Origin: Tetracentron sinense
Taxonomy: Eukaryota; Streptophyta; Magnoliopsida; Trochodendrales; Trochodendraceae
Reading direction: 5' to 3'
Length of the DNA stretch: 64,000 nt
NCBI GenBank assembly: GCA_015143295.1
Contig: CM026553.1
Span: 2,503,912 to 2,567,911, forward strand
The notes beneath the pieces were generated by a model, which was given only the letters and a program-made list of their open reading frames with translations, had not been told where the DNA came from and searched no databases. Shown piece by piece: positions 1,179 through 62,224 of this stretch. Positions within the stretch are counted from its first letter, which is position 1, and every line of letters starts with the position of its first letter. A program made the position numbers and the translations under genes.

Positions 1179-1337
1179 ATGCTCAGCCGTACTTTTATGT
1201 CGGCAGGTTTCGTGGATGTCCTCGACCCCGAGCCTTGGGTCAAGGAAGAGTACGTAGAGGAGAGGGAGCCACCTATCCCATTGCAGTCCCAGGAGGATAG
1301 GGATTTGGACGTGTGGCCGTATCTCGACTACTATTGA
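1179..1337 (+). CDS. LTR-encoded acidic micro-ORF (52 aa), E1 5' LTR
   Basis: A 52-codon ORF starts at an ATG in the loop of hairpin H1 and ends in TGA. I do not recognise a named family. It has the core DPEPWVKEEYVEE, a glutamate-rich middle and the tail RDLDVWPYLDYY. The same frame recurs in the LTRs of R1, D, E0, S2, S1, E3, E5 and F with diverged DNA but a retained PW-(V/I)EE-(E/D)Y core, which suggests selection on the peptide. It lies after a candidate 3' splice site (CGGCAG|GT at 1206), so it may be translated from a spliced leader. It would be an upstream ORF relative to gag. Role unknown; expression is not shown. Confidence 0.5.
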   Translation: MLSRTFMSAGFVDVLDPEPWVKEEYVEEREPPIPLQSQEDRDLDVWPYLDYY

Positions 1338-3182: not shown

Positions 3183-3317
3183 GTACACAAGAATTTTTGA
3201 AGTTTTAAGTTGTGTATAATTTCCATTCGGTGATGAGTTGTTATCTATACTAGGGGTTACCTATGTATGATGTATGTCTTGTTTGAAATCTACTGATGTT
3301 AGTCTTTAATCGCACAG
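3183..3317 (+). other. Predicted phase-1 intron between gag and protease, E1
   Basis: 135 bp, starting CAAG|GTACAC and ending CGCACAG|GC. Removal joins the gag frame to the protease frame within a glycine codon (1+2). The same phase and position are found in E3 (29433-29577) and E5 (40143-40324). It is AT-rich and holds in-frame stops, so unspliced RNA would give Gag only. Confidence 0.6.
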
Positions 3318-6300: not shown

Positions 6301-6365
6301 TTCGAGATCACTACTAGAGTCGGTGAGGTGGCTTACAGTGTTGCCTTACCCGCTTATATAGCGAC
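3318..6365 (+). pseudogene. pol: E1 pol: protease, RT, RNase H, integrase (5' part)
   Basis: Degenerate Ty3/gypsy Pol. In order: aspartic protease with [13 protein letters not shown] at about 3350; reverse transcriptase from about 3760 ([25 protein letters not shown], the FVDD site reads FINDILVYS near 4306); RNase H with [16 protein letters not shown] near 4740 and [11 protein letters not shown] near 4930; integrase zinc region from 5390 and core (WISMDF-like near 5598, IVSDRDPR near 5780, VIEDMLRACM near 5898). Frameshifts lie near 3620, 4800 and 5850. Stops include 3919, 4276, 4417, 5114, 5465 and 5577. Solo LTR S1 interrupts it at 6366; the frame resumes at 8725. Confidence 0.93.
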
Positions 6366-6578
6366 TGTAGAGCCCCGGACCTTTTCACATTTAATGCATG
6401 ACACTTTCGTTGCCATTTTACCTTTAAAGAGGTATAATTAATAAATAAGGAAGAAATTGGAAATTCCAAAATGTCAGAAATGTTCCTTTTCGAAGTACGA
6501 ACCCAACGCAAGTTGAATCGTCAAAATCCGACGAACGAGTCAAAAGATATGGCCAAAACAGTCTGGCCCTGCAGGCAA

Positions 6579-6760
6579 CCGATCGCTCGGTCCATGGAGC
6601 GATCGATCGGTCCAAAACCGATCGCTCGGAGGCTATCGACTGGTCAAGATTTTTGTATGGGGAAATTTTCCAGAGAGTAAAATTTTAACCGATCGCTCGG
6701 TTATAAAACCGATCGATCGGTAGGCAACCGATCGATCGGTCATTAACACCGATCGCTCGG
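6579..6760 (+). repeat. GATCGATC palindrome array in S1 U3
   Basis: Six or more copies of CCGATCG(A/C)TCGG-type 12-mers are spaced 10-30 bp apart. They are split by a spacer at 6631-6677 that holds GGCTATCGACTGG and GTATGGGGAAATTTTCC. The same spacer occurs in E3 and, with about five mismatches in 47 bp, in the copia-type LTRs of CN. Confidence 0.93.
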
Positions 6761-7680
6761 TACTCGCGTTTTTGCAGAAAATTTAGTAAGGGTGTTTTCA
6801 TCTTTTGGGCATTTCACTCATACCTTAAAGGCTTTGTCCGATCATTTGAGGGTTCATACACAACCCTTAGAGTCTTTTGAGAGATAGAGAGAAAGGAGAA
6901 GGGTTTCCAAAACCTAGGTTTTCATTTGGGAGAAATCAAAGGGGTTAAGACCCTAGATCAACCCCAAGCCCGTTTTCTTCAAGATCAAGGCTCAAGCATT
7001 CGAGGAACTCGTGATCCAAGCTAGGGCAGCAGCTACACGGTCGTTTTTGGAAGGGGTTTCTTCCTCATTGTTCAAGGTCGGTACTTCTTGCTACCCTCCT
7101 AGTTATAGTTCTTCTTTCCTTTATTTTCTTTGTGTTCCTTTATACATCCATGTATTATGAGATGGGTTGTAAATGGTAAATGGTGAATGATGAATGGAGA
7201 TGAATGTGGGCGATTGGATGCCGTGTGTGTTGATGTGATGGATGAACGGGGAGGGCATTGTACCCATAATAAACATACATATGTGATGTGAGTAAAACCC
7301 ACCTAGAAAAGCATGTTGTAGGGTTAATAAATAATGAACACACTATGTTTGATGAGATGCCAAGGTGAATAAAATGAGTGATAAATTAAGGGAATACATG
7401 TTTAATTATTCATGAAATTGTTAGGGCATATGATAGTGTGTTTCTTACATTTCTCAAAATGTGCGATTTATTACTTGTTCAAATCGTGATATGCTATGCT
7501 TTGTAAATTAACCAAATTGTCATATTTAATTCCAAATGCAAGTATGCACACGATCTCACGAGCACGCATGCATGACATGGATTACCGACATTTTTCAAGA
7601 ATGGGATTTAGAGGTGGGGCATATCCTACGATATGTTTTACCTCGCTTTTGGCAAGGACAAGTCGATCATGCATTATCAT

Positions 7681-8313: not shown

Positions 8314-8430
8314 ATGTCGGCAGGTGATGGTGGAGCAGCTGCTCCATTTGATATTTGTGCTCCGAGCCCTTGGGTGGAGGAGTACGTCGACGAGCCTTTG
8401 GAGGAACCTCTCGTAGAGGGTTACCATTAG
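8314..8430 (+). CDS. LTR acidic micro-ORF (38 aa), S1
   Basis: ATG-TCG-GCA-GGT opens a 38-codon ORF with the core FDICAPSPWVEEYVDEP and ends in TAG. It aligns in frame with the other LTR ORFs at PFDIC and PWVEE. Here the upstream ATG in the H1 loop is one base out of frame because of an extra T before TATGTCGG, so use of that ATG is not conserved. The protein would be small, acidic and soluble, with no signal peptide or membrane segment visible. Function unknown. Confidence 0.45.
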   Translation: MSAGDGGAAAPFDICAPSPWVEEYVDEPLEEPLVEGYH

Positions 8431-10999: not shown

Positions 11000-11158
11000 A
11001 TGCTTAGACGTACTTTTATGTCGGCAGGTTCCGTGGATGTCCTCAACCCCGAGCCTTGGATCGAGGAAGAGTACGTAGAGGAGATGGAGCCACCTATCCC
11101 GTTGCAGTCCCAGAAGGATAGGGATTTGGATGTGTGGCCGTATCTCGACTACAGTTGA
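11000..11158 (+). CDS. LTR acidic micro-ORF (52 aa), E1 3' LTR
   Basis: Second copy of the 1179-1337 ORF, the same length, open from the loop ATG to TGA. Core NPEPWIEEEYVEEMEPP, tail RDLDVWPYLDYS. It has no frameshift or stop although the neighbouring E1 pol frames have many. Function unknown. Confidence 0.5.
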   Translation: MLRRTFMSAGSVDVLNPEPWIEEEYVEEMEPPIPLQSQKDRDLDVWPYLDYS

Positions 11159-11445
11159 GAGGAGAGTACGAGAGAGTTCTTTGTGTACATTTTGATATTT
11201 TGATAGATGGGCCTGTCCACCTTTGACTTATTATGTTATGTAACTTTAACTTGGCATACTAGTTTGAGTTTTAAAAGAAAAGAAAAGTTAGTTCCCGTTT
11301 CCGCAGTCATGATATAGCTTTCGCACTCTGATTATCATTGTATTATATCATGTTTAGCCCTGTTCATTACAGGATGGTTTGGCAGGTACGTGCAGTCACC
11401 TCTATAGTATCCCTTAACTCCTAAGGGGTATTTTGGGGCACGACA

Positions 11446-12410
11446 TCTTGCCTTACCGAACTACGTTCAATTCAAATCAACTAGCTGCGCTGTACATCAA
11501 AGAAGTAATTTGGTTGAACGGAGTGCCAGTGAGCATTGTGTCGGACAAGGATCCTCGATTTACTTCTAGGTTTTGGAAGAACTTCCAGAGCGCTATGTGT
11601 TCTCGGTTGGACTTCAACACAGCTTTCCATCCACAGACTGATGGGCAAACTGAAAGGAAATAAGGTGATAGAGGATATACTCAAAGCCTATATGTTGGAT
11701 TTGAAAGGAAGTTGGGAAGATTATTTACCTTTGGTTGAGTTCGGGTATAACAATAGTTATCAGGCGAGCATCCAAATGACACCTTTCGAGACTTTATACG
11801 GGCGAAGTTGCAGATCTCCCTTATATTGGGATGAAGTCGGAGAAAGGAAAGTATTGGGTCCAGAGTTGATTGAGCGGACTGCGGACAGGGTCAAGCTTAT
11901 CTGAGAAAGGTTGAAGGCCGCGCAGAATCGAAAGAAGAGCTATGCCGACACCCATAGGTAGGATCTTGAATTCTTTGTTGGCGATTTGGTGTTTGTCAAG
12001 ATTTCACCGACCAAGGGTGTGATGAGATTTAGGAAGAGAGGCAAGCTTAGCCTGAGATATGTGGGTCCGTTCGAGATTATCACTAGAGTCGGTGAGGTGG
12101 CTTACTATGTTGCCTTACCCGCTCATATGGCAGTGGTCCACAATGTGTTCCATGTCTCTATGCTCCCAAAGTATATCCCGGATCCTTCCCATGTCATCGA
12201 GTCTGATCCGGTAAAGATTCGAGAGGACCTCACTCTAGTTGAGCAACCGGTGTAGATCTTGGACAGGCGAGATCAAGTCTTGCGCAACAAAATCATTCCG
12301 TTAGTCCTTGTAAGATGGCAACACCATTCGAGGGAAGAAGCTACTTGGGAGCATGAGATCGAAGTAAAGGAAAAATATCCCCAACTGTTTGTTCAGAGCT
12401 TGGGCATTCC
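11446..12410 (+). pseudogene. pol: E0 pol fragment: integrase core to chromodomain-like tail
   Basis: The 5' part is left of the window because E1 inserted here. Visible: [32 protein letters not shown] (second catalytic Asp); DGQTERK with a frameshift at about 11660; VIEDILKAYMLD (catalytic Glu); WDEVGERKVLGPELIE; KGVMRFRKRGKLSLRYVGPF; and the tail EEATWEHEIEVKEKYPQLFV. Stops at 11902, 11959 and 12253. It belongs to the same chromovirus group as E1 and is the older host of E1. Confidence 0.92.
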
Positions 12411-14131: not shown

Positions 14132-14284
14132 ATGCTCAGCCGTAATTTTATATCAGTAGGTACACGGGTCCCCTTTGACATTTGTGCCCCGGGTCCTTGG
14201 GTTGAGGAGGACTACGACGAGGAAGAACCATATGTGGATTCGGAGGTTGAGCCTCAGGCTGAGGCAAGGGACTTAGACCATTGA
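14132..14284 (+). CDS. LTR acidic micro-ORF (50 aa), E0
   Basis: Open from the H1-loop ATG to TGA. Core PFDICAPGPWVEEDYDEEEP, then DSEVEPQAEARDLDH. The TGA replaces the Trp codon found in S2 (DLDHWPHGGDY), and the frame continues PHGGG beyond it, so the original end was eight codons further. The splice acceptor has decayed to ATCAGTAG. Function unknown. Confidence 0.45.
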   Translation: MLSRNFISVGTRVPFDICAPGPWVEEDYDEEEPYVDSEVEPQAEARDLDH

Positions 14285-14652: not shown

Positions 14653-14793
14653 TCAACAGTAAGCTAGATACGGCCACACATCTAGATCTCTATCCGCCTA
14701 CGTCTGCATCAGGATAGGCGACTCTCTCTCCTCGACATATTCCTCTTCAACCCAAGGCTCGGGGTCGAAGGTACCCTCTAGACCTGACAACAT
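14653..14793 (-). pseudogene. LTR acidic micro-ORF, R1, one stop
   Basis: 47 codons with one internal TAG. The part before the stop has FDPEPWVEEEYVEERESP; the part after has ADRDLDVWPYLAYC. It is closest to the E1 and D copies. The loop ATG is mutated to ATA, leaving the ATG before TCAGGT. Confidence 0.5.
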
Positions 14794-18572: not shown

Positions 18573-18692
18573 CTACTGATAACCCTCTACGGGAGGTTCC
18601 TCCAAAGGCTCCTCGACGTACTCCTCTTCCACCCATGGACCAGGAGCACAAACATCAAATGGAGCAGCAGCTCCCTCAGAACCTGCCGACAT
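18573..18692 (-). CDS. LTR acidic micro-ORF (39 aa), E3 3' LTR
   Basis: ATG-TCG-GCA-GGT start, then EGAAAPFDVCAPGPWVEEEY, EEPLEEPPVEGYQ and TAG. It is intact and matches the S1 ORF with substitutions only. The E3 gag and pol are broken but both LTR copies of this ORF are open. Function unknown. Confidence 0.5.
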   Translation of the reverse strand: MSAGSEGAAAPFDVCAPGPWVEEEYVEEPLEEPPVEGYQ

Positions 18693-20092: not shown

Positions 20093-20276
20093 ACCGAGCG
20101 ATCGGTGTTAATGACCGATCGATCGGTTGCCTACCGAGCGATCGGTGTGTTGACCGATCTCTCGACCAAAAATCAACTCTCTGGAAAATTTCCCCATACA
20201 AAAATCTTGACCAGTCGATAGCTACCGATTGATCGGTTTTGGACCGATCGATCGCTCTATGGACCGAGCGATCGGT
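20093..20276 (-). repeat. GATCGATC palindrome array in E3 3' U3
   Basis: Seven palindromic motifs such as ACCGAGCGATCGGT and ACCGATCGATCGGT around the spacer at 20177-20222 (CTCTCTGGAAAATTTCCCC, CCAGTCGATAGC). It lies upstream of the inferred transcription start on the minus strand. Confidence 0.93.
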
Positions 20277-20488
20277 TGCCTGCAAGTCCAGACTGTTTTG
20301 GCCATAACTTTTGACTCGTTCGTCTGATTTTGACGATTTAACTTGCGTTAGGTTCGCACTTCGAAAACGAACATTTCTGATGTTTCAAAATTTTCAATTT
20401 CTTCCTTATTTATTAATTATACCACTTTAAAGGCAAAATGGCTATGAAAGTGTCATGCATTAAATGTGAAAAAGTCCGGGGCTCTACA

Positions 20489-20589
20489 TCCTCCCCCCCT
20501 TACAAAAATTTCGTCCTCGAAATTTAGACGCTACTCGCATTACAAACCCAAAAGAAAATTACAAGTCATGTACAAACTTATGCAAAAAC
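20489..20589 (-). promoter_or_regulatory. E3 polypurine tract and pol 3' untranslated stretch
   Basis: TCCTCCCCCCCTTACAAAAA (minus strand AAGGGGGGGAGGA) adjoins the 3' LTR and precedes TTTCGTCCTCGAAATTT, the conserved sequence seen at the end of other elements here. Confidence 0.88.
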
Positions 20590-29432: not shown

Positions 29433-29577
29433 CTGAAATTTTAGCTAGCTAAGTCAATTCATGCATCAACAACGTATACATATAGGTATTTATATATATA
29501 ACATGCCATATACGTACACAAAGAATAATTCATAATAATTTAATTTACGGGTAATTAAATAAATTACAACTGCGTAC
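29433..29577 (-). other. Predicted phase-1 intron between gag and protease, E3
   Basis: 145 bp on the minus strand, CAAG|GTACGC to ATTTCAG|GA, strongly AT-rich with TATATATA. Splicing joins gag to protease through a glycine codon, exactly as in E1 and E5. Confidence 0.65.
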
Positions 29578-30826
29578 CTTGCACTACATCGTCAGATGCA
29601 AGTGCATCACCCTCTGTCAAGGCAAAAACTCGCCCCTGTTTCGCCTGGCGAGACTCAGGTGTAGACCAGGTAGTCTGAGATAACGCCTGATATGATCCTG
29701 CTGGGCGTGCTGGTGGCCTAATCCCCTGAGACTGGCCTGGTAAATGCCGGCTAAGGCAATCCCTGATCATGTGGCCCTGGCGACCGCAATGATAACATCC
29801 ACCAGATACTCTTCGGCAATCTCCTGCCGGATGCCTTTTGCCGCATGAAGTGCAGACCTCATATGAGTAGGCCGGAGGGGCCGAAGGTGGTGCATACCTC
29901 GCTACCTGAGGTGCAACTGGTCTTGGGGCTGGAAGAGCCTGAGGTCGAGGTGCCTATGGCACGTACTGCCGTGGGGCTGGAGGCGCACAAGTCGGCCTCA
30001 TCTGTGGTGCTGGCCATGTATACTGATAAGGGCCGGTACGAGCTCGCCTCTCTGGAGGTGCTGAACTACTGGCTTGGCCTCTTGCCAACTCTCTCTTAAT
30101 AGACACCGCTTCAGAATTGGCCTCGACCAATAAGGCCTTGTCTACCACTTCAGGGTAGGTAGCATGCCTGAAAACAGAAACCTTCTCCATAATAACATCC
30201 TTGAGCCCTTGCTCAAATCTTCTCGCCTTCATTGCCTCAGTAGTAACCATATGAGGCGCAAATCTCGACAACTCCGAGAACTTGGCCTCATAAGCGGCCA
30301 CAGACATCGAACCTTGCTCAAGGTTGATAAATTCTCTCTCTTTCTTTTCCCGAGCTCCAACCGGGAAATACTTCTTATAGAACGTGTCCTTAAACTCCTC
30401 CCAAGTCCACGGTTGACCTTGCATGGTCAAGTCCCGTGTCCTTAATGCGGACAACCACCAATGGTGGGCTTCGCTCTCTAGCATGAAAACTGCCCATGCT
30501 ACTCTATCCTCCTCTGTAGGCGAGAGGACCGCAAAGATCTTCTCCATCTGGAGGATCCATGCCTCCGCAGCAAGAGGGTCCACACTCCCCTGGAATGGTG
30601 GAGGCCTCAATCTCCTGAATGCCTCAACTCCAGCTGTACGATGTACTGGAGCTGCGGGCAGTGGAGTAGGTGCCGCCGATGATGGTATAGCCTGCCGAGC
30701 CGCCAGTGTGGCAAGTGTCTCAGCAATGGAGCCTAAGACCTGAGAGAGGTCCGACTGCTCATCCTCATCCCGTGAAGAAGAGGAAGCTCTGGTATGTGGC
30801 CCACGACCCCGTGTGTTCCGTCTCAT
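29578..30826 (-). pseudogene. gag: E3 gag, one in-frame stop
   Basis: Starts MRRNTRGRGPHTRASSSSRD; capsid region SVDPLAAEAWILQMEKIFAV, AHHWWLSALRTRDLTMQGQP, YEAKFSELSRFAPHMVTTEA; proline-rich linker; zinc-knuckle region CTSCGKRHPAGDC...CYHCGRQGHMIRDC, the second part a full CCHC. A single TAG (about 29954) replaces a Gln codon in the linker. The ATG follows TTCTCAG|GA, a candidate splice acceptor. Confidence 0.93.
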
Positions 30827-31187
30827 GACTAAAGTCCTGAGAATAATAACACCACACGAGTCTTCTTGAAACCACAATTTATCTCGGTGCCCTTTCACAA
30901 TAATTCAACTTGTAAAAATTTTATAGTACTAGTATACATTACATCAAGTCATCAGAGTATATCATAATATTATACTTATACTTTGGTGTTCTAGCGTCCC
31001 TAGGACCCGTACTTGGTTAAAGCAACCTTTTTAGACTAAGACTAAAGTTTAGTCTTACACTTGGAACCAGACTCGCTCCCGACTTACTTCCATCCTAACT
31101 TTTTTCCTAACATATGCTCTTGTCAAGCCGTGGTATTCGATTCTAAGTGACCCTAAAGACCTAAAGCCTAAGCTCTGATACCACTTC
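30827..31187 (-). promoter_or_regulatory. E3 leader and primer-binding site (31171-31183)
   Basis: Minus strand TGGTATCAGAGCT is the initiator-Met primer site, four bases from the 5' LTR. The rest is leader without a gene; ATTCTCAG|GAC at its end is a candidate acceptor before gag. Confidence 0.88.
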
Positions 31188-33394
31188 TGTCGCGACCCAA
31201 AACCCACCCTAGGAGTTAGAGTGAACTTTAGATGACTAATCATGACTTGCTTGACAACCAACCTGCAAAACCCACAGAGCATATACAATAGAGGACATTA
31301 TAGCGGAAACATAACCATAAAGCACAGCGGAAGTCTAACAACCTCTAAGTATATACACATGGCCCATGTTTAATACAAAGAAATCAAAACAAAGAAAGTG
31401 CGGACATGCCCGCCAAAATACATGGATATAATCACTCATGCTCACCCACAGCTAATCCACTCAGAATCTAACACCACCTACTGATAACCCTCTACGGGAG
31501 GTTCCTCCAAAGGCTCCTCGACGTACTCCTCTTCCACCCATGGACCAGGAGCACAAACATCAAATGGAGCAGCAGCTCCCTCAGAACCTGCCGACATAAG
31601 AAGTACGGCTGAGCATGGAATACTCAGCGGGTACCAAATAATAACCAATAGTCATAGCATACATAAATCAGAAGCAATTCATATATGTTAGAAGGAAACA
31701 ATTCATATCATACAAGGAAGCAAAGCAATTTATAATCATGCTTGTATTTCGTAGAAAGCCGATGAAACCTCTTGAAAACATCGTGCACTTGACTTGGCTT
31801 GAAATATCTTTTCGTACTTGAAAGCTTGTCGTGTTTGTCTTGCTTGATCTTGTCGAGCGTGTCGTACGTGTCATGTCATGCGTGCTTGCTTGTGATCATG
31901 TAACTTGTGAGATACACTTGTGAGATATCCTTGTGAGATGCGCTTGAGAGATGCCTTGAGAGGGAAGGGAGACCCTTCTTTATGCAATGCACTTGAGAGG
32001 GAAGGGAGACCCTTCTTCATGATATGTATGTACTTGCGAGGGAAGGGAGGCCCTTCTTCATTATATGCACTTGTGAGTGAGGGGAGACCCCTCGTGGAAT
32101 GTTGGTTCTTGTTTCCTTGTGAAAAGCGAGGTAAAACATATCGTAGGATATGTCCCACCTCTAACCATGTTCTTGAAAACCTCGGTAAATCATGTCATGC
32201 ATGCGTGCTCGTGAGGTCGTGCGCATACTTGCATTTGGAATTAAATATGGCATTTGAGTAATTCATAACACATAACATCAATGATTTGAGCAATTTAGTA
32301 TTCATATCATTTAGGGAAAGCGAACAATCACACTATCATGACCCTAGCAATTTCTATAAACCTTAAACATGAAATTTATTAATTTACTATTCATTTCATT
32401 CATCTTGGCATTTCATCAAACATGGTGTGTTCGTTATTGATTTACCCTACAACATGCTTTTCTAGATGGGTTTTACTCAAATCATGCATGTATGTTCATT
32501 ATTGGAACAATGCCCTCCCCATTTTAATCATCACAACACAACCATTGGCATCCAATCGCCCATTCCATCTCCATTCACCATTCACAACCATCCATCTCAT
32601 AGCACATGTGTAAATAAAGGAAAATAAAGAGAAATAAAGGGAAAAGAGGAACTATAACTAGGAGGGTAGCAAGAAGTACCGACCTTGACATATGGGGGAA
32701 GAAATCCTCCACCAAAACGCATGTGAGTTGCTGCCCTAGCTTGAGGAGAGTGCCCCACACGAGCTTGAGCCGAGATCTTGAAGAAAATGGACTTGAGGTG
32801 AGTGTGGGTTCACAACCCTTTAATTTCTCCTCCAAAAATCAAACCCTAGGTTAGGGATCGCCTTCTTCTCCTCTCCTTAGCTCTCAATCTTCTAAGTATT
32901 GTAAATAAGCCCTAAAGGCTCGGGCAAGACTCTTAAGGTAAGAGTAAACCACCCAAAAGACTAAAACACCCTTACTAAATTTTCTGCAAAAACGCGAGTA
33001 CCGAGCGATCGGTGTTAATGACCGATCGATCGATTGCCTACCGAGCGATCGGTGTGTTGACCGATCTCTTGACCAAAAATCAACTCTCTGGAAAATTTCC
33101 CCATACAAAAATCTTGATCAGTCGATAGCTACCGATCGATCGGTTTTGGACCGATCGATCGCTCTATGGACCGAGCGATCGGTTGCCTGCAAGTCCAAAC
33201 TGTTTTGGCCATAACTTTTGACTCGTTCGTCCGATTTTGACGATTTAACTTGCGTTGGGTTCGTACTTCGAAAACGAACATTTCTGACATTTCGGAATTT
33301 TTAATTTCTTCCTTATTTATTAATTATACCACTTTAAAGGCAAAATGGCTACAAAAGTGTCATGCATTAAATGTGAAAAGTCCAGGGCTCTACA
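31188..33394 (-). mobile_element. E3 5' LTR
   Basis: 2207 bp, about 98% identical to 18284-20488. It carries H1 (31603-31634), H2 (31400-31413), the GAAGGG array (31955-32095) and the GATCGATC array (33001-33182). The flank tcctt is the second half of the E3 duplication. Confidence 0.96.
31478..31597 (-). CDS. LTR acidic micro-ORF (39 aa), E3 5' LTR
   Basis: Intact copy of the ORF at 18573-18692, same length and core (FDVCAPGPWVEEEYVEEP). It would lie in the leader of the E3 transcript upstream of the primer site and gag. Confidence 0.5.
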   Translation of the reverse strand: MSAGSEGAAAPFDVCAPGPWVEEEYVEEPLEEPPVEGYQ

Positions 33395-34420: not shown

Positions 34421-34555
34421 TCAATAATAGGGCCATCGATCTAGGTCCCTTTCTTCCTCGGGATAGTCACCTTCGGGTTCCTCGAGATACTCCTCTTCTT
34501 CCCAAGGTCCGGGAGCACAAATGTCGAAGCCAGAACCTGAACCTAGACCTGCCGA
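34421..34555 (-). CDS. LTR acidic micro-ORF (44 codons), E5 3' LTR
   Basis: Open frame from TCG-GCA-GGT (no ATG here; the position reads TTG) through GSGSGFDICAPGPWEEEEYL, EEPEGDYPEEERDLDRWPYY and TGA. It shares FDIC, PW, EEEY and the RDLD-WPYY tail. Lack of an ATG in both E5 LTRs supports a start in an upstream exon joined at CGGCAG|GT, or a non-coding reading of this conservation. Confidence 0.45.
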   Translation of the reverse strand, partial: SAGLGSGSGFDICAPGPWEEEEYLEEPEGDYPEEERDLDRWPYY

Positions 34556-34589: not shown

Positions 34590-35625
34590 CGCGTATATAA
34601 CAGAACATAATAAACAATATAAAGAATAACATTTACATGCATGTCATCAATTCACCATTAACTTATATATAAAAATCAGAGTACGGAAGTTAAACATTTA
34701 CATTATGCCAATTTCTTTCTTTCTTTCTTTTTCTTTCTTTCTGTTCTTTCTTTCTTACTTTTCTTTCTTTTCTTACTTTTCGTATTTCATGTATTATCAT
34801 CACACCAATACTCATTCACAAGCATTTGTAATAACTTAAAATACCGCTTTACCGTATAAGGAAAGGGGTTACTATACTTTACTTTACCGAGATACCACCC
34901 TTCATACATTATCCGATACGAATGGCTTAGTACATTATCCGGTACGACGGCTTACTTACTTTGGCATACATCTCGCCCTTTCTGATGGTATTCAGTGGTG
35001 CACAACATACATTCTCGCTTTTGTGTGTCTTTCTTTCTTACTTACATACTTTTCTTACTTTACTTTGGGTATTACTTACATTTCCTTAATATCTTTAATT
35101 CTTTATTTATACTTTTGCATATTTTCCATTCGTGAGTGCACAATGATATACCCCTTATTTAAATTTGACCTAAGACTAGTCGTCAAGGGCCATAGGACAT
35201 CTCACCATAGCATCCCATACCACTACATTAACCAGGCCTAGGCAGCATGACTTTCATCGTAGGTTCGTTTACCCAATGGTATATCACGTAGTGGGATCAT
35301 AAAAGAAACACACTAACTATCATATTCCTAATGATTCCACAATATAAAATTCACAGTTGATATTAAAAGTGTTCCTAAATCATAATCAAATTTCAATTTC
35401 AATTCCTCCTTTTTGTTTAATCGAGATCAATATTCTGATCATAATCCTTTTTAATTGATAACTATTCTCTTGAATTTCTAAACATGAAATCTAACCCAAA
35501 CATCATTAAATATCACCATAAAATCATCCATTCAAATTCATCCATCATCCCATCCTTCTCGTAAATCTACACACTTCACATCACTTTCCCAACCCCTTCT
35601 TGAATCATAATAAATTTTCATAGTT

Positions 35626-35960
35626 CTTCACATCTTACCATAATAATTCCATGATAATAAAATAATATTAGCAACAGTCCTTCACATCCTATTTTAACAT
35701 TTCAATAATAATAAAATAATATCATCAATAGTTCTTTACATCCTACTTTAACATTTCAATAATAACAAAAAATATCATCAATGGTTCTTCACATCCTACT
35801 TTAACATTTCAATAATAATAAAATAATATCATCAATGGTTTTTCACATCCTACTTTAACCTTTCAATAATAACAAAATAATGTCATCAATGGTTCTTCAC
35901 ATCCTACTTTAACAATCAATAAATAATAAAACAGAGTCATCAATAGGTTTTCACATCCTA
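35626..35960 (-). repeat. About 56-bp tandem array in E5 3' LTR
   Basis: Six to seven units built on TTCTTCACATCCTACTTTAA and CAATAATAATAAAATAATAT. The matching array in the 5' LTR is at 43203-43570 with a different unit count. It lies in the predicted LTR intron, but no clear stem is seen. Confidence 0.88.
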
Positions 35961-36772
35961 TTTTAACCATCAAGGATAATTATAAACGACATCATAGGTA
36001 GGTTCTTCACATCCTATTTTAGCATCCATAAATAAGAAAATGAGAATCAGATATAGTTCTTCACATCATATGTTAATCATTCAATAATAGAGATCGTAAT
36101 CATGGTCCTTTACATTCCATTTAACAAATCCATCAACCATAATAAAAGGATAGACTACGGTTCTTCACATCCTACATATTCTTACATCTTTACCTAGATT
36201 CATCCCTTTTTATTCCTTATTCAGGTTAAACTATTCAAAATATTGAATTCTAGATCTGTTATTTACCTCACTTGATCGTATCTCTACGATCTATTGCTTG
36301 TGAATAGGGTTCTACTTGATCTTCTCGCCTCATTTTCCCTTTTTCTGAACGAATCTTTGAACTCCTTCAATCCTTCTCTCTTTGATCTCTCAAAAACTCT
36401 CCCTTTTCTCTCTTTTAGGTTTTTAGAAGGCCTTAGAAACCCTCCCCACGAGTAAAAAGGGGTATTTATAACATTGGGAGCCCTAGGGACTTAAAAAAAC
36501 ACGAAAACGCTCAACCCACTGTCCAGTCGGCATTTTGGGCAATTGATCGATCGTTGGCGCTAATTATTTTTTTTTTCTACTTTTTGTTCTTCTTTGATTT
36601 AGTGCAATTTATCTCTATAAATTCACTAAATCACGTGAATTAAATGGGTTTTGAGATTCTCGATTTTTAATGCATTGATTTCTCATGGGTTCACACATTA
36701 TTTTGGGCACATTTATTTAGGAACTTAGCTAACACAATTATGAACCTAGTGCATTAAATGTGGGTCATTACA

Positions 36773-40142: not shown

Positions 40143-40324
40143 CTTAGTTCATAAATAGCTAAGTGTTAATTTATTATGTTATAATCAAAATCACACCATG
40201 TACTTATTTTCAATAAGTCATATATATATATATGCAAATATCATATTTTTATAAGTATCATGTCATACAATCAATCTACAATATGCAATTATTTCTACTC
40301 AATTAAATTATGAATCATACGTAC
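40143..40324 (-). other. Predicted phase-1 intron between gag and protease, E5
   Basis: 182 bp, CCAGG|GTACGT to ACTAAG|GA, AT-rich. Same phase and place as in E1 and E3: the flanking exon parts join in frame through a glycine codon. Confidence 0.62.
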
Positions 40325-41591
40325 CCTGGACCACATCATCTGATGCTAGAGCATCCTTCTCTGAGATGGAAAAGACTCTCCCCTGTGTGTTCTGGCGAGG
40401 GGGCTGAGGTGCCTACCGAGTCTTTGGTGCTAAGGGAGGCTTTGGCGGTGGTGCCTGTCTAGCTGGAGGCCTGTTTCTTTTCATCTGGGATTGCTGAGTT
40501 ACCGGTTGTGACTTCTGAGGACAATCCCTAATCTGATGTCCTAACTCACCACACTGAAAACATCCGCCAATAAGAGTGCGGCATTCTCTGGCCTTGTGTT
40601 TCTTCCCACAATGAACACACGTCTCAAACACAACTGGAAGAGTAGGTTGGGCAGGACGATTAACTGATGCTGTAGTTATGGTAGAGCGAGGGGAAGGTGT
40701 AGGTCTCTGAGTATTCTGCACTGGCCTTGTACCCGGGTATGGGGCAGGTTTGGCCCTCTTCTCTGGTTGTACTAGTCCACTGGTCTGACCTCTAACCATC
40801 TTCATGTTCCTTATGTTGCTGTCCCTCCTCTTAAAGAACTCCTCAAAATTCTTCTCTGCTATTTTTGCCTTGTTCACTAACTCCCCAAAAGTTCCTATTT
40901 GTAATATAGAAACCTTGTCCCTGATGAATGGCCTTAGACCTCTTTCGAACTTTCTGACCTTCAAATTTTCATTTGAAATCAGTTAAGGTGCAAATCGAGA
41001 CAGTTCAGCAAACTTTCCTTCATATTCCACCACTGTCATCTCTCCCTGTTCCAAGGTGAGGAATTCTACTTCTTTCTATTCCCTGACAAAGGTTGGAAAA
41101 TACTGCTTGTAAAATAAATCCAGGAATTCTGCCCATGTCCATGGCTGCCCAGTCCTGGTGATGTCTCTCTGTCTTACCGTAGCTCTCCACCAGTGCTCGG
41201 CTTCTCCCTCCATAACAAAAACAGCCCAATCGACCCTCTGTTATTCAGTACACCAGAGCACCCTAAAATTTTTCTCCAATTGCATGATCCATGCTTCAGC
41301 TGCCATTGGATCAGTGGTACCATAAAATGTTGGGGGTCTCAGCTTCCTAAAAGCTTCAATTCCTACTGTGGGATGTGCAGGAGGAGGAGGTGGTGGTGGT
41401 ATATTCACTTCCACATGCTCAGGTGTAGTTGCAACAGGTTGCCTAGCTGCAAGGAGTGCCATCGTTTGGGCAATGGAACCCAAAACCTATGCCAAATCAA
41501 GCTGGTCATAAATTTCTGGGCATCCTTCTCCATTGCCCCTGCCTGCATTCCCTCTAGTATTGTATTCACGTCCTCTGCCACCGCGTCTCAT
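40325..41591 (-). pseudogene. gag: E5 gag, several stops
   Basis: Starts MRRGGRGREYNTRG; capsid region MGSIAQTMALLAARQPV, PPTFYGTTDPMAAEAWIMQL, AEHWWRATVRQRDITRTGQP, KFERGLRPFIRDKVSILQ; zinc-knuckle region CVHCGKKHKAREC...CFQCGELGHQIRDC. A polyproline run PPPPPPPAHP lies in the N-terminal third. Stops occur near 41240, 41075, 40985 and 40413. Confidence 0.9.
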
Positions 41592-41771
41592 TATAACAGT
41601 CCTGAGAATAAACGATAACCAATATTTAGTCTCGTAACTATCTTAAATTTATCACTAAAAATTCATGCAAACAAACAATGACTGGTCCTAGCATCCCATG
41701 ACTCCTCCCAGCTCATGGAATTTCTAACTCATGCCCTAGCTGACCTAATGCCTTTGCTCTGATACCATCTC
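41592..41771 (-). promoter_or_regulatory. E5 leader and primer-binding site (41756-41767)
   Basis: Minus strand TGGTATCAGAGC, initiator-Met type. TTCTCAG|GAC lies about 10 bases before the gag ATG, as in E1 and E3. Confidence 0.88.
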
Positions 41772-44376
41772 TGTCACGCCCCAAAACCCCACCAAGGAGG
41801 CTGTGAGATCTTGGCACGTGACTTACTTATTGATCATCCTGTTAGAAGCAATTAAGGCACAACAATATGGACCTAAAAATTTTTCTTAAAATAAAACATC
41901 AACTAAAACTCCAATCCCATAATCTAACTGAAAAGTAATAAATCCTGGTCACCCATCTAGACCATAACCATAAAAGACTACTAACATGTGTCTCTATCCA
42001 TAATTAAAATCATCTGGAATTTAAATAACCATAAAATAACTTCAATAATAGGGTGATCGATCAAGGTCCCTTTCTTCCTCGGGATAGTCACCTTTGGGTT
42101 CCTCGAGATACTCCTCTTCTCCCCAAGGTCCGGGAGCACAAATGTCGAAGCTTGAACCTGAACCTGGACCTGCCGACAACAAAAGTCATCGGCTGAGTAA
42201 CGAGTAACTCCGTGTATATAACAGAACATAATAAACAATATAAAGAATAACATTTACATGCATGTCATCACTTCACACATTAACTTACATATAAAAATCA
42301 GAGTGCGGAAATTAAACATTTACATTATGCCAATTTCTTTCTTTCTTTCTTTTTCTTTTCGTATTTCATGTATTATCATCACACCAATACCCATTCACAT
42401 GCATTTGTAATCACTTAAAATACCGCTTTACCGTATAAGGAAAGGGGTTACTATACTTTACTTTACCGAGATACCACCCTTCGTACATTATCCGGTACAG
42501 ACGACTTAGTACATTTTCTGGTACGACGGCTTACTTACTTTGGCATACATCTCGCCCTTTCTGATGGTATTTGGTGATGTACAACACAACATACATTATC
42601 GCTTTTTTATGTCTTTCTTTCTTACTTACATACTTTTCTTACTTTACTTTGGGTCTTACATTTCCTTAACATCTTTAATTCTTTATTTATACTTTAGCAT
42701 ATTTTCCATTCGTGAGTGCACAATGACATACCCCTTGTTTAAATTTCACCTAAGACTAGTTGTCAAGGGCCATAGAACATCTCACCATAGCGTCCCATAC
42801 AACTACGTTAACCAGGCCTAGGCAGCATGACTTTCATCGTAGGTTCGTTTACCCAATGGTATATCACGTATTGGGATCATAAAAGAAACACACTAACTAT
42901 CATATTCCTAATGATTCAACAATATAAAATTCACAGTTGATATTAAAAGTGTTCCTAAATCATAATCAAATTTAAATTTCAATTCCTCCTTTTTGTTTAA
43001 TCGAGATCAATATCCTGATCATAATCCTTTTTAATTGATAACCATTCTCCTGAATTTCTAAACATAAAATCTAACCCAAACATCATTAAATATCACCATA
43101 AAATCATCCATTCAAATTCATCCAACATCCCATCCTCCTCGTAAATCTACACACTTTACATCACTTTCCCAACCCCTTCTTGAATCATAATAAATTTTAC
43201 ATAGTTCTTCACATCTTACCATAATAATTCCATGATAATAAAATAATATCAGCAACAGTCCTTCACATCCTATTTTAACATTTCAATAATAATAAAATAA
43301 TATCATCAATGGTTCTTCACATCCTACTTTAAATTTCAATAATAACGAAATAATATCATCAATGGTTCATCACATCCTACTTTAACATTTCAATAATAAT
43401 AAAATAATATCATCAATGGTTTTTCACATCCTACTTTAACCTTTCAATAATAACAAAATAATATCATTAACCATTCTATAATAACAAAATAATATCATCA
43501 ATGGTTCTTCACATCCTACTTTAACAATCAATAAATAATAAAACAGAGTCATCAATAGGTTTTCACATCCTATTTTAACCATCAAGGATAATTATAAACG
43601 ACATCATAGGTAGGTTTTCACATCCTATTTTAGCATCCATAAATATTAAAATGAGAATCAGATATAGTTCTTCACAGCATATGTTAATCATTCAATAATA
43701 GAGATCGTAATCATGGTCCTTTACATTCTATTTAACAAATCCATCAACCATAATAAAAGGGTAGACTACGGTTCTTCACATCCTACATATTCTTACATCT
43801 TTACTTAGATTCATCCCTTTTTATTCCTTATTCAGGTTAAACTATTCAAAATATTGAATACTAGATCTGTTATTTACCTCACTTGATCGTATCCCTACGA
43901 TCTATTGCTTGCGAATAGGGTTCTACTTGATCTTCTCGCCTCCTTTTCCCTTTTTCTAACCGAATCTTTAAACTCCTTGAATCCCTCTCTCTTTGATCTC
44001 TCAAAAACTCTCAATTTTCTCTCTTTTAGGTTTTTAGAAGGCCTTGGAAACCCTCCCCACGAGTAAAAAGGGGTATTTATAACATTGGCAGCCCTAGGGA
44101 CTCAAAAAAACACGAAAACGCTCAACCCACCGTCCAGCCGGTGTTTTGGGCGAACGATCGCCGGTGCTAATTTTTTTTTCGCTACTTTTTGTTCTTCTTT
44201 GATTTTGTGCAATTTATCTCTATAAATTCACTAAATCAAGTGAATTAAATGGGTTTTGAGATTCTCAATTTTTATGCGTTGATTTCTCATAGGTTCACGC
44301 ATTATTTTGAGCACATTTATTTAGGAACTTAGCTAACACAATTATGAACCTAGTGCATTAAATGTGGGTCATTACA
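41772..44376 (-). mobile_element. E5 5' LTR
   Basis: 2605 bp. TATAAATA at 44074-44081 (minus), splice-donor-like GTGAG|GTAAATAA near 43877, tandem array 43203-43570. The H1-position hairpin is weaker than in the 3' LTR. Confidence 0.95.
42042..42176 (-). CDS. LTR acidic micro-ORF (44 codons), E5 5' LTR
   Basis: Second E5 copy, open over the same 45 triplets: FDICAPGPWGEEEYLEEP, then EEERDLDRSPYY and TGA. Differences from the 3' LTR copy are substitutions only (for example W to S, E to G), with no indel. Confidence 0.45.
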   Translation of the reverse strand, partial: SAGPGSGSSFDICAPGPWGEEEYLEEPKGDYPEEERDLDRSPYY

Positions 44377-47585: not shown

Positions 47586-47726
47586 TCAACAGAAATCGAG
47601 GTATGGCCACATGTCCAAATTTCTATCCATGTGAGACTACATCAGGATAGGTGGCTCTGTCTCTTCTACATACTCTTCCTCGACCCAAGGCTCAGGGTCG
47701 AGGACATCCATAGTACCTACCGACAT
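47586..47726 (-). pseudogene. LTR acidic micro-ORF, D, one stop
   Basis: 47 codons with one TAG: MSVGTMDVLDPEPWVEEEY, EETEPPILM, stop, then RNLDMWPYLDFC. Closest to E1 and R1. Confidence 0.5.
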
Positions 47727-48440: not shown

Positions 48441-50023
48441 CTATCGTAAATCACATTTCTTGTTCTTGTTGTTTCTTTCAATTACTTATACTTTAAAAAC
48501 ATCGGTTCATGCATGCATGCGTGAGTGGGTATGGCATTGTAGAAATCTTGATGACATGCATGACTAAAAGGAACCATGTGTGTAACACCCGTGGTGATCA
48601 TGACAACATGTGCAACAAAAGGGATTATGCATAGAATTTTCAATTTTAATATAATCATTCGAGAATTTTGACAACATATAAGCATTTGATCAATTTATCA
48701 TTTTTAAGGAAAATTACATAAGGCCTACTTTCATCTTCTTCATTAAATCCATTTAGTTCTCATTTAGGTATTTTATCAAACACATGTCGTGCAACATTTC
48801 ATAGTCATTCTTTTTAAGTTCTTAGTGCATGCATTTCATCAAACCATATAGGGTGTATTCGTTATGCTTGAAATGCCCATCCACCATTCTCCATCACACA
48901 ACATTCATCACACAATACGGCATCCAATCGCCTCAACCCCTCCTTCATTCATACATCCCACCATTCATATTTATCATGTTTGTATTTAGGGAAATTAGCA
49001 TATTGCAAAAAAAGGGAGAATTGAAGATCAAAATCATCATTTTCAAGAGAGAAATCTAGGTTATTACTAAGCTAGTTAGTATGGTGTACTAACCTTAAGA
49101 TCAAAGCTTGATCTTGGAGGAAAACCCTTTATTGAAGCTCCAACTTGGAAGAGGAGAACCCAATCTTGAAGATGAAGAAGCCTTGCTTGATTTGGGTTGA
49201 TTTGATCTCCTCTTGATCTTAGATGTAATCCTCCTTGGAGATTTTCCCAAATCTCCCCTCTCTTCTTTCTCTCCTTTCCTCTCTCTTAGGTCTAGGGTTA
49301 ACCAAAAACCCCCCAATCACTTTCTATTTATAAGCCCAAGGGTTGAAACCCTTGATTTCAGGTCTTAAAAAAAAAAGAGTTATGCGATGACAATCGATTG
49401 TCGATCTTGGGACGATCGATCGTCCACACTCTAGCAAGCTTGCATAGATTTATGTCTCCAGATAATCGATCGTTAGTTTGTGACGATCGATCATCCATGA
49501 TCCAGTGAGTTGCCTAGATTTCTGGGCTCATTGTAGCACCCCAGACTTTTTCATCCTTAATGAATAGCACCTTCATAGCTAATTAGCCGTTTTTGTATTC
49601 TAATTAATAAATAAGGGAGAAATTGGAAATTCCGAAATGTCAGAAATGTTCCTTTTCGAAGTACGAACCCAACGCAAGTTGAATCTTCAAAATCGGACGA
49701 ACGAGTCAAAAGATATGGCCAAAACAGTCTGGACCTGCAGGCAATCGTAGCTCGGAAGGCACTAAGGACGTAGCTCGGAAGGCACTAAGGACGTAGCTCT
49801 GATAACGTGCTCTGACAACGTGTTCTGATAAGGCACAGACAACGCATAGACAACGTACTCTGATAACGTAGCTCTAGCTCTGATAACGTATACGTTGTGC
49901 ATCCGTTGTGCAACAGACAACGGGTACGTCGTGCAGCAGACAACGTGTACGTTGTACAGTAAACAACGTGTACGTTGTACAGCTCACGACGGGCACGTTG
50001 TACATAAGACAACGGACAACGAG

Positions 50024-50397
50024 CTCGGCACTATTCATAGCACAACGTGTTCAACACTATTCACAGCACAACGTGTTCAGCACTATTCATAGCACAACGT
50101 GTTTGGCACTATTCACAACACAACGGGTTCGGCACCCTTCACAGCACAACGTACTCGGCACTATTCACAGCACAACGTGTTCAGCACTATTCACAGCACA
50201 ACGTGTTCAGCACTATTCACAGAACAACGTGTTTGGCACTATTCACAGCACAACGTGTTCGGCACTATTCACAGCACAACGTGTTTGGCACTATTCACAG
50301 CACAACGTGTTTGGCACTATTCACAGCACAATGTGTTCGGCACTATTCATAGCACAACGTGTTTGGCACTATTCACAGCTCAACGTGTTCGGCACTC
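50024..50397 (+). repeat. 26-bp tandem array in S2 U3
   Basis: About 14 units; each reads ACAACGTGTT(C/T)GGCACT plus ATTCACAGC. Upstream, 49747-50020 has looser repeats of the same words (GACAACGTGTACGTTGTACA, ACGTAGCTCGGAAGGCACTA). The period is not a multiple of three and units lack stops, which explains long overlapping open frames here. Those are not counted as genes. Confidence 0.95.
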
Positions 50398-51377
50398 GTG
50401 TTTTTGCAGAAATTTCAGTAAGGGTATTATGGTCTTTTGGTCGGTTCACTCTTACCTTAAGAGTTTAACCCGAGCCTTTAGGGCTCATTCTCAACACTTA
50501 GAGGATTTGGGGGATTAGAAGAGAGGAGAAAGGGTTTCCTAAGCTAGGGTTTTGCTTTTGGAGAAGAATCAAAGGGGTTTTGAGACCCTAGATCACTTCA
50601 AGTCCGAATTTTCTCCAAGATCACGGCTCAAGCACTCGTGGAGAGCGTTCCCCAAGCTAGGGCAGCAACCCAAGCACGTTTTTGAAAGGGGTTTCTTCCC
50701 CAACTCAAGTCTCCTTCAAGCAAAGGTGTTCTTCTTTCAAGTTGGAGCTTCAATCAAGGTTTCTACCAAGGATCAAGCCTTGATCTAAGGTTAGTACACC
50801 CTACTAACTTACCCTAGCAATAAATCTAGGTTTTCCTTATGAAATGTGATTTATGCTATTATGTTTGCCTCCCATATGAAATGTATCATCTCCAATGAAC
50901 CTAAATAAGATAAGAAAAGGGTATGGATGTGTGTGGGTGTTGATGTGGCGATTGGATACCGAGATGTATGTTGTGTGATGTGTGTGATGGAAATGGTGGA
51001 TGGGTAGTTTACCAATAATGAACTTACCTTGATGTTTGGATGGAAAGTATGCGCTAAAAAGAACAAGATGAATTATTATGAAACATTGCATGTGTTGTGT
51101 TTGACAAAATGCCTAAACTATGAATAAACGACTTAGATGAAGAAAATGGAAATAGGTTTTATGCATGTGTTCTTATAGACGATGAATTGATCCAATGTCA
51201 TGTGAATTACTTAAGTTACCTATGCTAATATTATGAATTGAATTGTAATGCCATATCTCTTTTGTTAAGCGCATTCCCACGATTGTTATTATTGGCACGC
51301 ACATGAGCACGCATGATAGCATGAACCGAGATTTCAAGAGCATGTGCATATAATAAACAACAAGAAAATATTGCATG

Positions 51378-51727
51378 TCAAGGAGGTTGGTAGCCCAGGG
51401 AGAATTCGGGTACTAACCTCTGGCTCACAAGAAAACCCCTAAAACACCTATTGTCAAGGAGGTTGGTAGCCCAAGGAAAATTCGGGTACTAGCCTCTGGC
51501 TCACAAGAAAACTAAACAAGTAATAAAAATCACCTATTGTCAAGGAGGTTGGTAGCCCAGGGAGATTCGGGTACTAGCCTCTGGCTCACAAGAAAACCAA
51601 ACATTGCATATCAAGGAGGTTGGTAGCCCAGGGACATTCGGGTACTAACCTCTGGCTCTCAAGTGCATTGCATATCAAGGAGGTTGGCAGCCCAGGGAGA
51701 TTCGGGTGCTAGCCTCTGGCTCACAAG
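51378..51727 (+). repeat. Five-unit hairpin-forming array in S2
   Basis: Units TCAAGGAGGTTGGTAGCCC, GGGAGATTCGGGTACTAGCC, TCTGGCTCACAAG with 60-85 bp spacing, related to the arrays in E1 and E0. Confidence 0.9.
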
Positions 51728-51980
51728 TTACAAGATGAAAGTTTACAAGATGATGATCATGCATTCATGCATGCACGCATACATGATTTCTACGAGGCAT
51801 ATCGAGACAGGACATGGGTTTCAAGCTTGGGTTTTATCGGTGTTTTTGCATTCATGCACACACTTTTAAATGATTGTATTGTACCATGTCAAATACTGTT
51901 TAGTTCGTGATGCTTCTATTACTGCTTTGTATGGTATGACTATTACGTGTGTTATTATTGTTATAGCTAGCTAGTAGCTT

Positions 51981-52012
51981 GTACTCGCTGAGTATTCCAT
52001 GCTCAGCCGTAC
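51981..52012 (+). promoter_or_regulatory. Hairpin H1 of S2
   Basis: GTAC-TC-GCTGAG, loop TATTCCATG, CTCAGC-C-GTAC. It ends 14 bases before CGGCAG|GT. Confidence 0.6.
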
Positions 52013-52172
52013 TTTCATGTCGGCAGGTGTGCGAGCCCCTCTTGACATATGTGATCAGGGTCCTTGGATAGAGGAGGACTACGGGGAGGAAGAACCGTAT
52101 GAGGAGCTAGTAGTCGAGCCTCAAGCGGAGGCGAGAGACTTAGACCATTGGCCCCACGGGGGTGACTATTGA
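51999..52172 (+). CDS. LTR acidic micro-ORF (57 aa), S2
   Basis: The longest intact copy, from the H1-loop ATG to TGA: APLDICDQGPWIEEDYGEEE, then VEPQAEARDLDHWPHGGDY. It aligns with E0 throughout and with E5 and E1 at the DLD-WP tail. Acidic, no transmembrane or signal segment. Function unknown. Confidence 0.5.
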   Translation: MLSRTFMSAGVRAPLDICDQGPWIEEDYGEEEPYEELVVEPQAEARDLDHWPHGGDY

Positions 52173-52212
52173 TCGAGAAAGTGTTGGGTCTTATGTATTT
52201 TGATATTTTGAT

Positions 52213-52230
52213 AGGTGGGCCTGTCCACCT
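52213..52230 (+). promoter_or_regulatory. Hairpin H2 of S2
   Basis: AGGTGG-GCCTGT-CCACCT, perfect six-pair stem, hexaloop GCCTGT, 40 bases after the ORF stop. Confidence 0.6.
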
Positions 52231-52466
52231 TAGACTTAGGCGTGTTTTGTATTTATGCTAACTTGGAATACTACAATTTGGATCATTATAAAGAAAAGAA
52301 AAATTTAGTTTTCGCTTCCGTAAATTATGTTTAGCTTCCGCGCTCTGATTATCATTGTTTAGGACTGTGTTTATCTTGTGCATTACAGGATGGTTTGGCA
52401 GGTATGAAGTGTCACATCCAAAATATTCCTAAACTCCGAGGGGGTATTTTGGGGCGTGACACTCAT

Positions 52467-52711
52467 GACGATTGATCGTCGCCATGTGGAGATCGATTGT
52501 CAAACCCAGTTTTTCATCCTTTTCACCTGCAGACCCCATGGGGTGTTTCCAACCTTGCTCTCATGCTTTTTAGGATCTTAAAATCCCTTCTTCACGCTGC
52601 CCATGAGTTACCGACATCCAATTCCTCATAAATTATTACTTGCACTACGTGAAAGGCCAATTGGCTATGAAAACACTGTTTATTAGGTACGGAAAGTTCC
52701 GGGGCGCTACA
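52467..52711 (-). mobile_element. D 3' LTR, second part
   Basis: Rest of the D LTR after S2, with two more degenerate ATCGATTGTC-type palindromes. It ends CGGGGCGCTACA at 52711 (minus-strand start TGTAGCGCCCCGG). Total D LTR about 2.46 kb. Confidence 0.9.
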
Positions 52712-54933: not shown

Positions 54934-55499
54934 TGTAGACCCGGGATTTTAACCCCCACTCCCGATCAGGATTGAACCCGAGGAGGAATAGTGTTAAAAA
55001 TGTTGAAAAGAGAGAGTCGCCATCTATTTAGATTGTGAGGGAAAATAGGGTCCCTTAAAAGATTGGATAAGGCTTTTGGTATGGAAATAGAGTTCAAGGT
55101 AAGGGTTCATTTGAGTCAGGGGAAGGTGTTAGGCACCCCTAAACTCCCATCCGGAGATGGTTACCTACTCCTTAAGTCTGAATTAAAGTGGGGAAACCAT
55201 AAGAGAAACTTGTATTTCATCTATATGCTTGAAAAATATTGTATGAACAGTAATGTACATGTTGAAGTAAGCCGGGACAGGATAGGGGTTCTATCCTAGG
55301 TGAGCTGAACCTGATCAGGGTTGCCTACGTATCCCAGTCAGTGAAATCAAGCCACACGTAGTTCCAGATGGGTAGTTGATGGTTTGATTTGTTGGGTGTT
55401 TGGATTATGGGTGTTTGATAAGCTGAGATTGGTATTTGGATGTTAGGGTGTTTTTGAATGGTTCAGGGGTTTTTGCTCCTGTTAGAGGAGCGATGTGAC

Positions 55500-55775
55500 C
55501 TTTTAAGCTCGTGTTGAGGAGCGTTTGGACAGTTTTGGCTCATGTCAAGGAGCACTTGGACAGTTTTAACTCATGTCAAGGAGCCTGTGGACAGTTTTAG
55601 CTCATGTCAAGGAGCCCTTGGACAGTTTTAGCTCATGTCAAGGAGCCTGTGGATAGTTTTAGCTCATGTCAAGGAGCCTGTGGACAGTTTTAGCTCATGT
55701 CAAGGAGCCCTTGGACAGTTTTAGCTCATGTCAAGGAGCCTGTGGACAGTTTTAGCTCATGTCAAGGAGCCTCTT
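55500..55775 (-). repeat. 31-bp tandem array in S3
   Basis: About nine units of GACAGTTTTAGCTCATGTCA plus AGGAGCCTGTG, period 31. Absent from the T 5' LTR. Confidence 0.92.
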
Positions 55776-55849
55776 GGGTTTAGGGTTTGATGGGATTTGA
55801 AACAGGGTTTAAAGCGAGGTGTTTGGACAAAAGTTCGACTAGGTGGGTA

Positions 55850-62068: not shown

Positions 62069-62224
62069 ATGTCGGCAGGTCCCTTCGACATTTGTGGCGA
62101 GCGTCCTCAAGAACCATGGGTCGAGGAAGAGTATGTTGAGGAGGAGGAGACTTGGGGTAGTCTTCAGCAGCAGAGGGCTCAGGAGGAGCAGAGGGCTTTT
62201 GTTAGGTGGCCCCATCATGAGTGA
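62069..62224 (+). CDS. LTR acidic micro-ORF (51 aa), F
   Basis: ATG-TCG-GCA-GGT start; PFDICGERPQEPWVEEEY, EEEETW, then Gln-rich LQQQRAQEEQRAF and WPHHE before TGA. FDIC, PWVEEEYVEE and the WP tail are kept; a three-codon insertion precedes PW. Intact although F has lost most of gag. The frame is also open upstream to 61985 through H1. Confidence 0.5.
   Translation: MSAGPFDICGERPQEPWVEEEYVEEEETWGSLQQQRAQEEQRAFVRWPHHE

Follow-up and report, generated by a model that had tools for sequence, protein, structure and literature searches.

Retroviral sag and nef are coded in or over the 3' long terminal repeat (LTR) and are reached by splicing; each starts from an ATG of its own and far exceeds in length the frame considered here. 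We analyzed a short acidic reading frame that recurs in the LTRs of chromodomain-bearing Ty3/gypsy retrotransposons within a 64,000-nt stretch of the Tetracentron sinense genome (GenBank assembly GCA_015143295.1, contig CM026553.1, positions 2,503,912 to 2,567,911 of the forward strand; hereafter the window). The closest system in logic, compared by architecture only, is CERV of the C. elegans Ty3/gypsy element Cer1, which joins a spliced GAG-like N-terminal half to a 3' exon. Excerpts of the paper on CERV describe a protein with five exons that genomic RNA export depends on and that derives from a spliced mRNA; its N-terminal half shares GAG peptide sequences and its C-terminal half is made by an open reading frame (ORF) at the 3' end (PMC10309623). 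For plant LTR retrotransposons, a second report describes shGAG isoforms (EVD and BARE-1 are named), i.e., short spliced RNAs giving Gag products without pol; they arise by splicing and premature termination and, unlike in our proposal, an LTR-encoded tail is not mentioned in the excerpts, according to which the Tekay clade is missing from the expressed set (PMC7730604). The Ogre intron, again as excerpted, lies inside the polyprotein region, and its splicing in a subset of transcripts permits translation of the whole polyprotein (PMC6317226), whereas the gap described here lies between gag and protease. The shGAG isoforms (PMC7730604) and the Ogre intron (PMC6317226) are the plant precedents; in the excerpted texts, neither they nor CERV (PMC10309623) place a coding exon in the LTR. 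Among the titles and abstract openings listed in a literature search, none describes an acidic exon encoded in the LTR, or an intron between gag and protease, for such elements, which is not proof of absence.

We propose, as a reading that we favor by a narrow balance of probability, that the 3' LTR holds an alternative terminal exon whose coding portion is the acidic frame and which would be joined to Gag. The splicing event, gag as the partner, and any role of the resulting tail are what we infer from sequence; a coding signature between families, splice-site-like sequences, agreement of phase, and the absence of a common start codon were observed directly.

The acidic frame and its conservation

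Each cassette consists of a hairpin (H1), a TCGGCAG|GT-type motif (TCGGCAGGT in the R1 copy), the acidic frame, and a second hairpin (H2). An earlier note on this DNA had listed 13 cassettes, all of which were recovered in the window, and its placement of the four parts in R1 was confirmed (stop codon at 52170-52172; Table 1). Eight further cassettes were found in 200 kb of the same 1.16 Gb genome, a random sample of 20 stretches of 10 kb outside the window. The H1 pattern (≤3 mismatches) matched 21 times in the window versus 0.24 expected from shuffles; as the motif is near-palindromic, most H1 sites were counted on both strands. The peptide core reads PW(V/I)EE(E/D)Y with EE downstream, often with (F/L)DIC ahead and RDLDxWP near the stop. 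By our reading, nine of the 13 frames remain open as far as their usual end (E1a, E1b, E0, R1, F, and both copies each of E3 and E4), and the ten counted previously are reached if S1, which stops at the WP tail, is included; S2 and D stop earlier, and the copy at 18113 (minus strand) has a frameshift. The flanking LTR sequence had been called hard to align between families, which we correct here: it is alignable among several of them, at ~67-85% identity. LTRs measure ~2.2 kb in E3 and ~2.6 kb in E4, and the end of the acidic frame lies 271-289 nt from the LTR end in E1, E3, E4, and R1.

Internal parts of the elements encode gag, reverse transcriptase, RNase H, and integrase. Matches to Pfam Chromo reached 19.8 bits (E 7.6e-4) in E3 and 23.5 bits (E 5.3e-5) in E4, short of the curated cut-off of 25.1 in each case. 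The elements are putative Tekay/Del chromoviruses. The primer site TGGTATCAGAGC directly follows the LTR in E1, F, E3, R1, and L061. A protein search returned two short proteins of 47 and 44 amino acids with the same core (source ENA; E 0.008 and 0.06). Four acidic peptides had no Pfam match, and pattern scans of viral contigs gave no match.

The acidic frame is very probably protein-coding, and a conserved peptide frame in the LTRs of chromodomain-bearing gypsy elements is supported. In protein-guided alignments between families, the nonsynonymous substitution rate (dN) was ~0.1-0.45 of the synonymous rate (dS) where dS was computable, many pairs being saturated (dN and dS of 0.103 and 0.307 for E0/E3, 0.163 and 1.025 for R1/S1, and 0.127 and 0.425 for E1a/D). 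Because such alignments are biased toward low dN/dS and so favor a coding result, differences were also counted on DNA alignments of related LTRs. R1 and S1 differ 5, 10, and 20 times at codon positions 1, 2, and 3 of 51 codons, and the third-position excess is weaker for the D and S2 pairs (13, 11, and 17 of 49). Gaps within the frame measure only 3 or 12 nt, probably reflect two events, and all occur in the E0/E3/L025 group; the other three alignment groups have no gap within the frame, and the flanks contain many gaps of 1, 2, 4, and 5 nt. LTR pairs of single insertions lack a third-position excess (E1a/E1b 5, 3, 2; E4a/E4b 2, 3, 3), as expected if selection precedes insertion. The earlier note had named a dN/dS near 1, or indels as frequent in the frame as in the adjacent LTR, as signs against a conserved peptide, and neither was seen between families. 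Within the E4 family, however, changes found in two or more of the 22 copies look neutral: 5 are synonymous, 15 are non-synonymous, and 4 create a stop (neutral expectation of 0.27, 0.68, and 0.06).

Splice-site-like sequences and candidate partners of the frame

A good predicted 3' splice site lies at the start of the frame, as a spliced terminal exon would require. The candidate site comprises H1, a pyrimidine-rich stretch, and GGCAG|GT, and would lead into the frame in phase 1, the phase read by eye in 18 of 21 cassettes (exceptions: L024, the plus-strand cassette of L028, and L033). In R1, its score of 5.4 places it in the top 0.37% of sampled AG sites. Within the LTR, GGCAG|GT ranks first among 3' splice sites in E1b, R1, E4, and L027, and second in E3. 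Against the 23,256 AG sites in the random sample, 14 of the 18 acceptors scored, which did not include the plus-strand cassette of L028, rank in the top 1%; the minus-strand acceptor of L028 is at 1.6%, those of L022 and L024 are poor, and the low score of S1 is invalid, having been taken at the wrong AG.

The gag gene offers an upstream coding exon with a candidate donor of the same phase. In five families (E1, E3, E4, L061, and R1, the last via L065/L066), an intron-like phase-1 gap separates gag from protease, with a length of 124-182 nt in the four counted. Here, gag ends with VVQ-G|GTAC and meets a stop a few codons on, and the protease frame resumes after AG in phase 1. Since donor and LTR acceptor share this phase, Gag could be joined to the acidic exon. 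In the proposed scheme, the donor would normally be joined to the protease exon, yielding Gag-Pol; an unspliced gap would terminate Gag a few codons into it; and use of the LTR acceptor would skip pol and provide Gag with an acidic tail of ~35-50 residues around PW(V/I)EE(E/D)Y. As a guess, the tail might be a short docking motif that alters the fate of Gag or genomic RNA. A fuller version, in which one gag donor has three fates (retained intron for Gag, protease exon for Gag-Pol, and LTR exon for tailed Gag), tailed Gag acts in trans as a CERV-like regulator of the export or packaging of unspliced genomic RNA, and H1 tunes acceptor choice, is speculative and, taken whole, unlikely. If the terminal-exon proposal is true, LTRs that are commonly masked as non-coding would contain a protein-coding exon, the phase-1 gag/protease intron would set Gag versus Gag-Pol by splicing in an abundant plant retrotransposon group, and LTR copies would spread strong 3' splice sites across the genome. 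Another phase-1 candidate donor in gag, LEQ-G|GT, was rejected: other copies read CAG-GGG (window position 47025, minus strand) or CAA-GGC (L020).

Together with the neutral look of the E4 variants, several points weigh against the terminal-exon proposal. The gag donors are moderate (1.9-4.5), the protease acceptors of E3 and E4 score under the listing threshold of 2.5 (that of L061 scores 4.5), and all scores come from approximate plant splice-site matrices. A phase match would arise by chance in one of three cases. None of 40 scored genomic matches bridged the gag-exon junction, all of them covering the exon half only, at 100%; genomic copies of the junction are not strongly expected, as the polypurine tract would be missing from this RNA. 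No larger protein with the acidic tail was found in two length ranges, a weak test, with few plant proteins apparently covered. Finally, an ATG, which the proposal does not need, stands directly ahead of the motif in nine of the 13 window copies, and all 16 distinct R1-family copies (including L001, the window's own copy) keep the upstream ATG and an open frame.

Phase 1 by itself names no partner, and the coding exon might instead be entered from an upstream exon in pol or the LTR, where donor-like sites such as AAG|GTTAGTAC are present in E1 and R1. In several families, a TATAAATA-like box near the LTR 5' end is followed by a purine-rich, ATG-poor stretch and then by a donor-like site. Six such exon-1 stretches, with borders set by us, contain 2 ATG in total, against an average of 8.8 over 500 shuffles (minimum 1), none being significant singly (R1: 0 versus 1.0). 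Between exon-1 donor and GGCAG, the six LTRs hold 52-84 ATGs each over 1.1-1.7 kb, and a TTCTCAG acceptor lies immediately 5' of the gag ATG in E1, R1, E3, E4, and L061. Given the donor-like sites, the ATG-rich stretch, and this acceptor, the elements likely have a leader intron, within which the primer site may lie. As a coding partner, LTR exon 1 was rejected for its near lack of ATG and, in R1 and E4, for an in-frame stop immediately ahead of the donor (by eye). A U5 donor behind ATG-GTT-TGG-CAG is mismatched, being in phase 0 by eye. No donor with a mean score above 1.3 is conserved across the E1, E3, and E4 pol regions, and none was seen near the pol end. A partner other than gag is, in our view, improbable.

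Two side observations concern these sites. TTCTCAG-type acceptor regions lie at 1600-2100 in E1, at 30700-31190 in E3 and 41200-41775 in E4 (both minus strand), and in L017 and L061. In E1 and R1 (1340-1640, 11160-11460, and 52180-52480), CATTACAG|GATGGTTTGGCAG|GTA(C/T)G close to the 3' end of the LTR resembles a micro-exon of 13 nt that has an acceptor and the LTR's strongest donor.

Start codons and the micro-ORF alternative

The ATG counts in the window and in the R1 family speak for the earlier note's reading of the frame as a self-contained micro-ORF or upstream ORF (uORF). In this alternative, an AUG-started product beginning at ATG-TCG-GCA-GGT would be made from unspliced RNA or from a promoter just 5' of H1. 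In the window, seven of the nine ATGs precede TCGGCAGG itself, and those of S2 and D precede a variant. The start codon is not common to the families, which leaves this reading unsupported. All 22 E4-family copies read carry a TGA in the same frame, 12 nt ahead of the motif, and L050 of this family reaches an ATG solely via a frameshift; of the E4-family frames, 14 extend to the usual end, 5 terminate close to the WP tail, and the remaining 3 are disrupted or unread. The L027 family has no nearby ATG, its frame being open through H1 to an ATG ~37 codons upstream. A stand-alone micro-ORF is doubtful because of this lack of sharing in E4 and L027.

For the ATG-less families, the micro-ORF reading would have to assume that the ATG was lost or that one further upstream is used. 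Loss would fit the neutral change in E4 and the related plus-strand cassette of L028, which has an in-frame ATG where E4 holds one extra T; use of a distant ATG would fit the open L027 frame. However, the L027 family is very young and high in copy number (all 40 matches listed, from 1768 candidates, at 99-100% identity), yet without a nearby ATG. Unspliced RNA started at TATA-like boxes close to the LTR 5' end would moreover meet the 52-84 ATGs before the frame, and the ATG sits just before a strong 3' splice site, which would remove it. Altogether, we consider an AUG-started micro-ORF rather unlikely. A non-AUG start at the codon ahead of TCG was rejected, E4 copies carrying TTG, CTG, or TCG there. 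Some L027 matches are paired ~7.4 kb apart on the same strand.

Hairpins and further sequence features

H2 covaries: 83% of cells pair, versus 30-53% when slid, and four of six pairs are changed on both sides among 10 sequences (H2-like stems of E4, L022, L024, and L028, chosen by eye, are outside this count). H1 is conserved without covariation, with 92% of cells pairing versus 18-40% when slid, no pair with a double-sided change, and no excess over shuffles; a DNA palindrome or protein site is therefore as possible as an RNA stem. H1 was rejected as part of the acidic frame, since, between families, its distance from the frame is not divisible by three. The covarying H2, the purine-rich GAGGAGGA runs adjoining the 3' splice site, and the neutral look of change inside E4 would agree with a function at the RNA or DNA level, as a splicing enhancer, as hairpins, or as a splice site, with the acidic frame as a by-product. 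We regard this as very improbable: related LTRs show the third-position excess and gaps of solely 3 or 12 nt, the tail before the stop is conserved in several families, and the whole cassette folds no better than shuffled sequence (z 0.11).

Table 1. Positions in the window of the acidic frames, candidate splice features, and hairpins.
Feature	Position	Strand	Basis or score
Acidic frame R1, phase 1, stop included, as candidate terminal exon	52027..52172	+	frame reading, codon tests
Acidic frame, E1 first LTR	1207..1337	+	frame reading
Acidic frame, E1 second LTR	11028..11158	+	frame reading
Acidic frame, E0	8324..8430	+	frame reading
Acidic frame, S1, stops at WP tail	14160..14284	+	frame reading
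Acidic frame, F	62079..62224	+	frame reading
Acidic frame, S2, premature stop	14698..14783	-	frame reading
Acidic frame, D, premature stop	47637..47716	-	frame reading
Acidic frame, E3, one LTR	18573..18682	-	frame reading
Acidic frame, E3, other LTR	31478..31587	-	frame reading
Acidic frame, E4, one LTR, preceded by in-frame TGA, lacks ATG	34421..34548	-	
Acidic frame, E4, other LTR, preceded by in-frame TGA, lacks ATG	42042..42169	-	
TCGGCAG|GT (TCGGCAGGT), 3' splice-site-like; exon would start at 52027	52020..52028	+	splice-site score
E1 gag/protease gap, phase 1	3183..3317	+	donor CAAG|GTACAC 2.5, acceptor 3.0
E3 gag/protease gap, phase 1	29433..29577	-	donor CAAG|GTACGC 4.5, acceptor TTTCAG <2.5
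E4 gag/protease gap, phase 1	40143..40324	-	donor CAGG|GTACGT 3.9, acceptor CTAAG <2.5
R1 candidate leader exon 1, no ATG, ends at donor-like AAG|GTTAGTAC	50463..50789	+	donor score 5.4; borders set by us
R1 candidate leader intron, ATG-rich	50790..52026	+	56 ATG in 1232 nt; putative
H1 hairpin or palindrome	51988..52007	+	pairing count
H2 hairpin	52213..52230	+	pairing count

Palindromic ACCGATCGATCGGT-type motifs are repeated 5' of the candidate promoter at the start of the LTR in E3 (~20100-20490, minus strand) and E0 (~6365-6800, plus strand), and also in L027. Tandem repeats with unit lengths of 26, 31, and ~54 nt lie at 49964-50457, 55440-55802, and 35558-36174, respectively, the last inside an E4 LTR.
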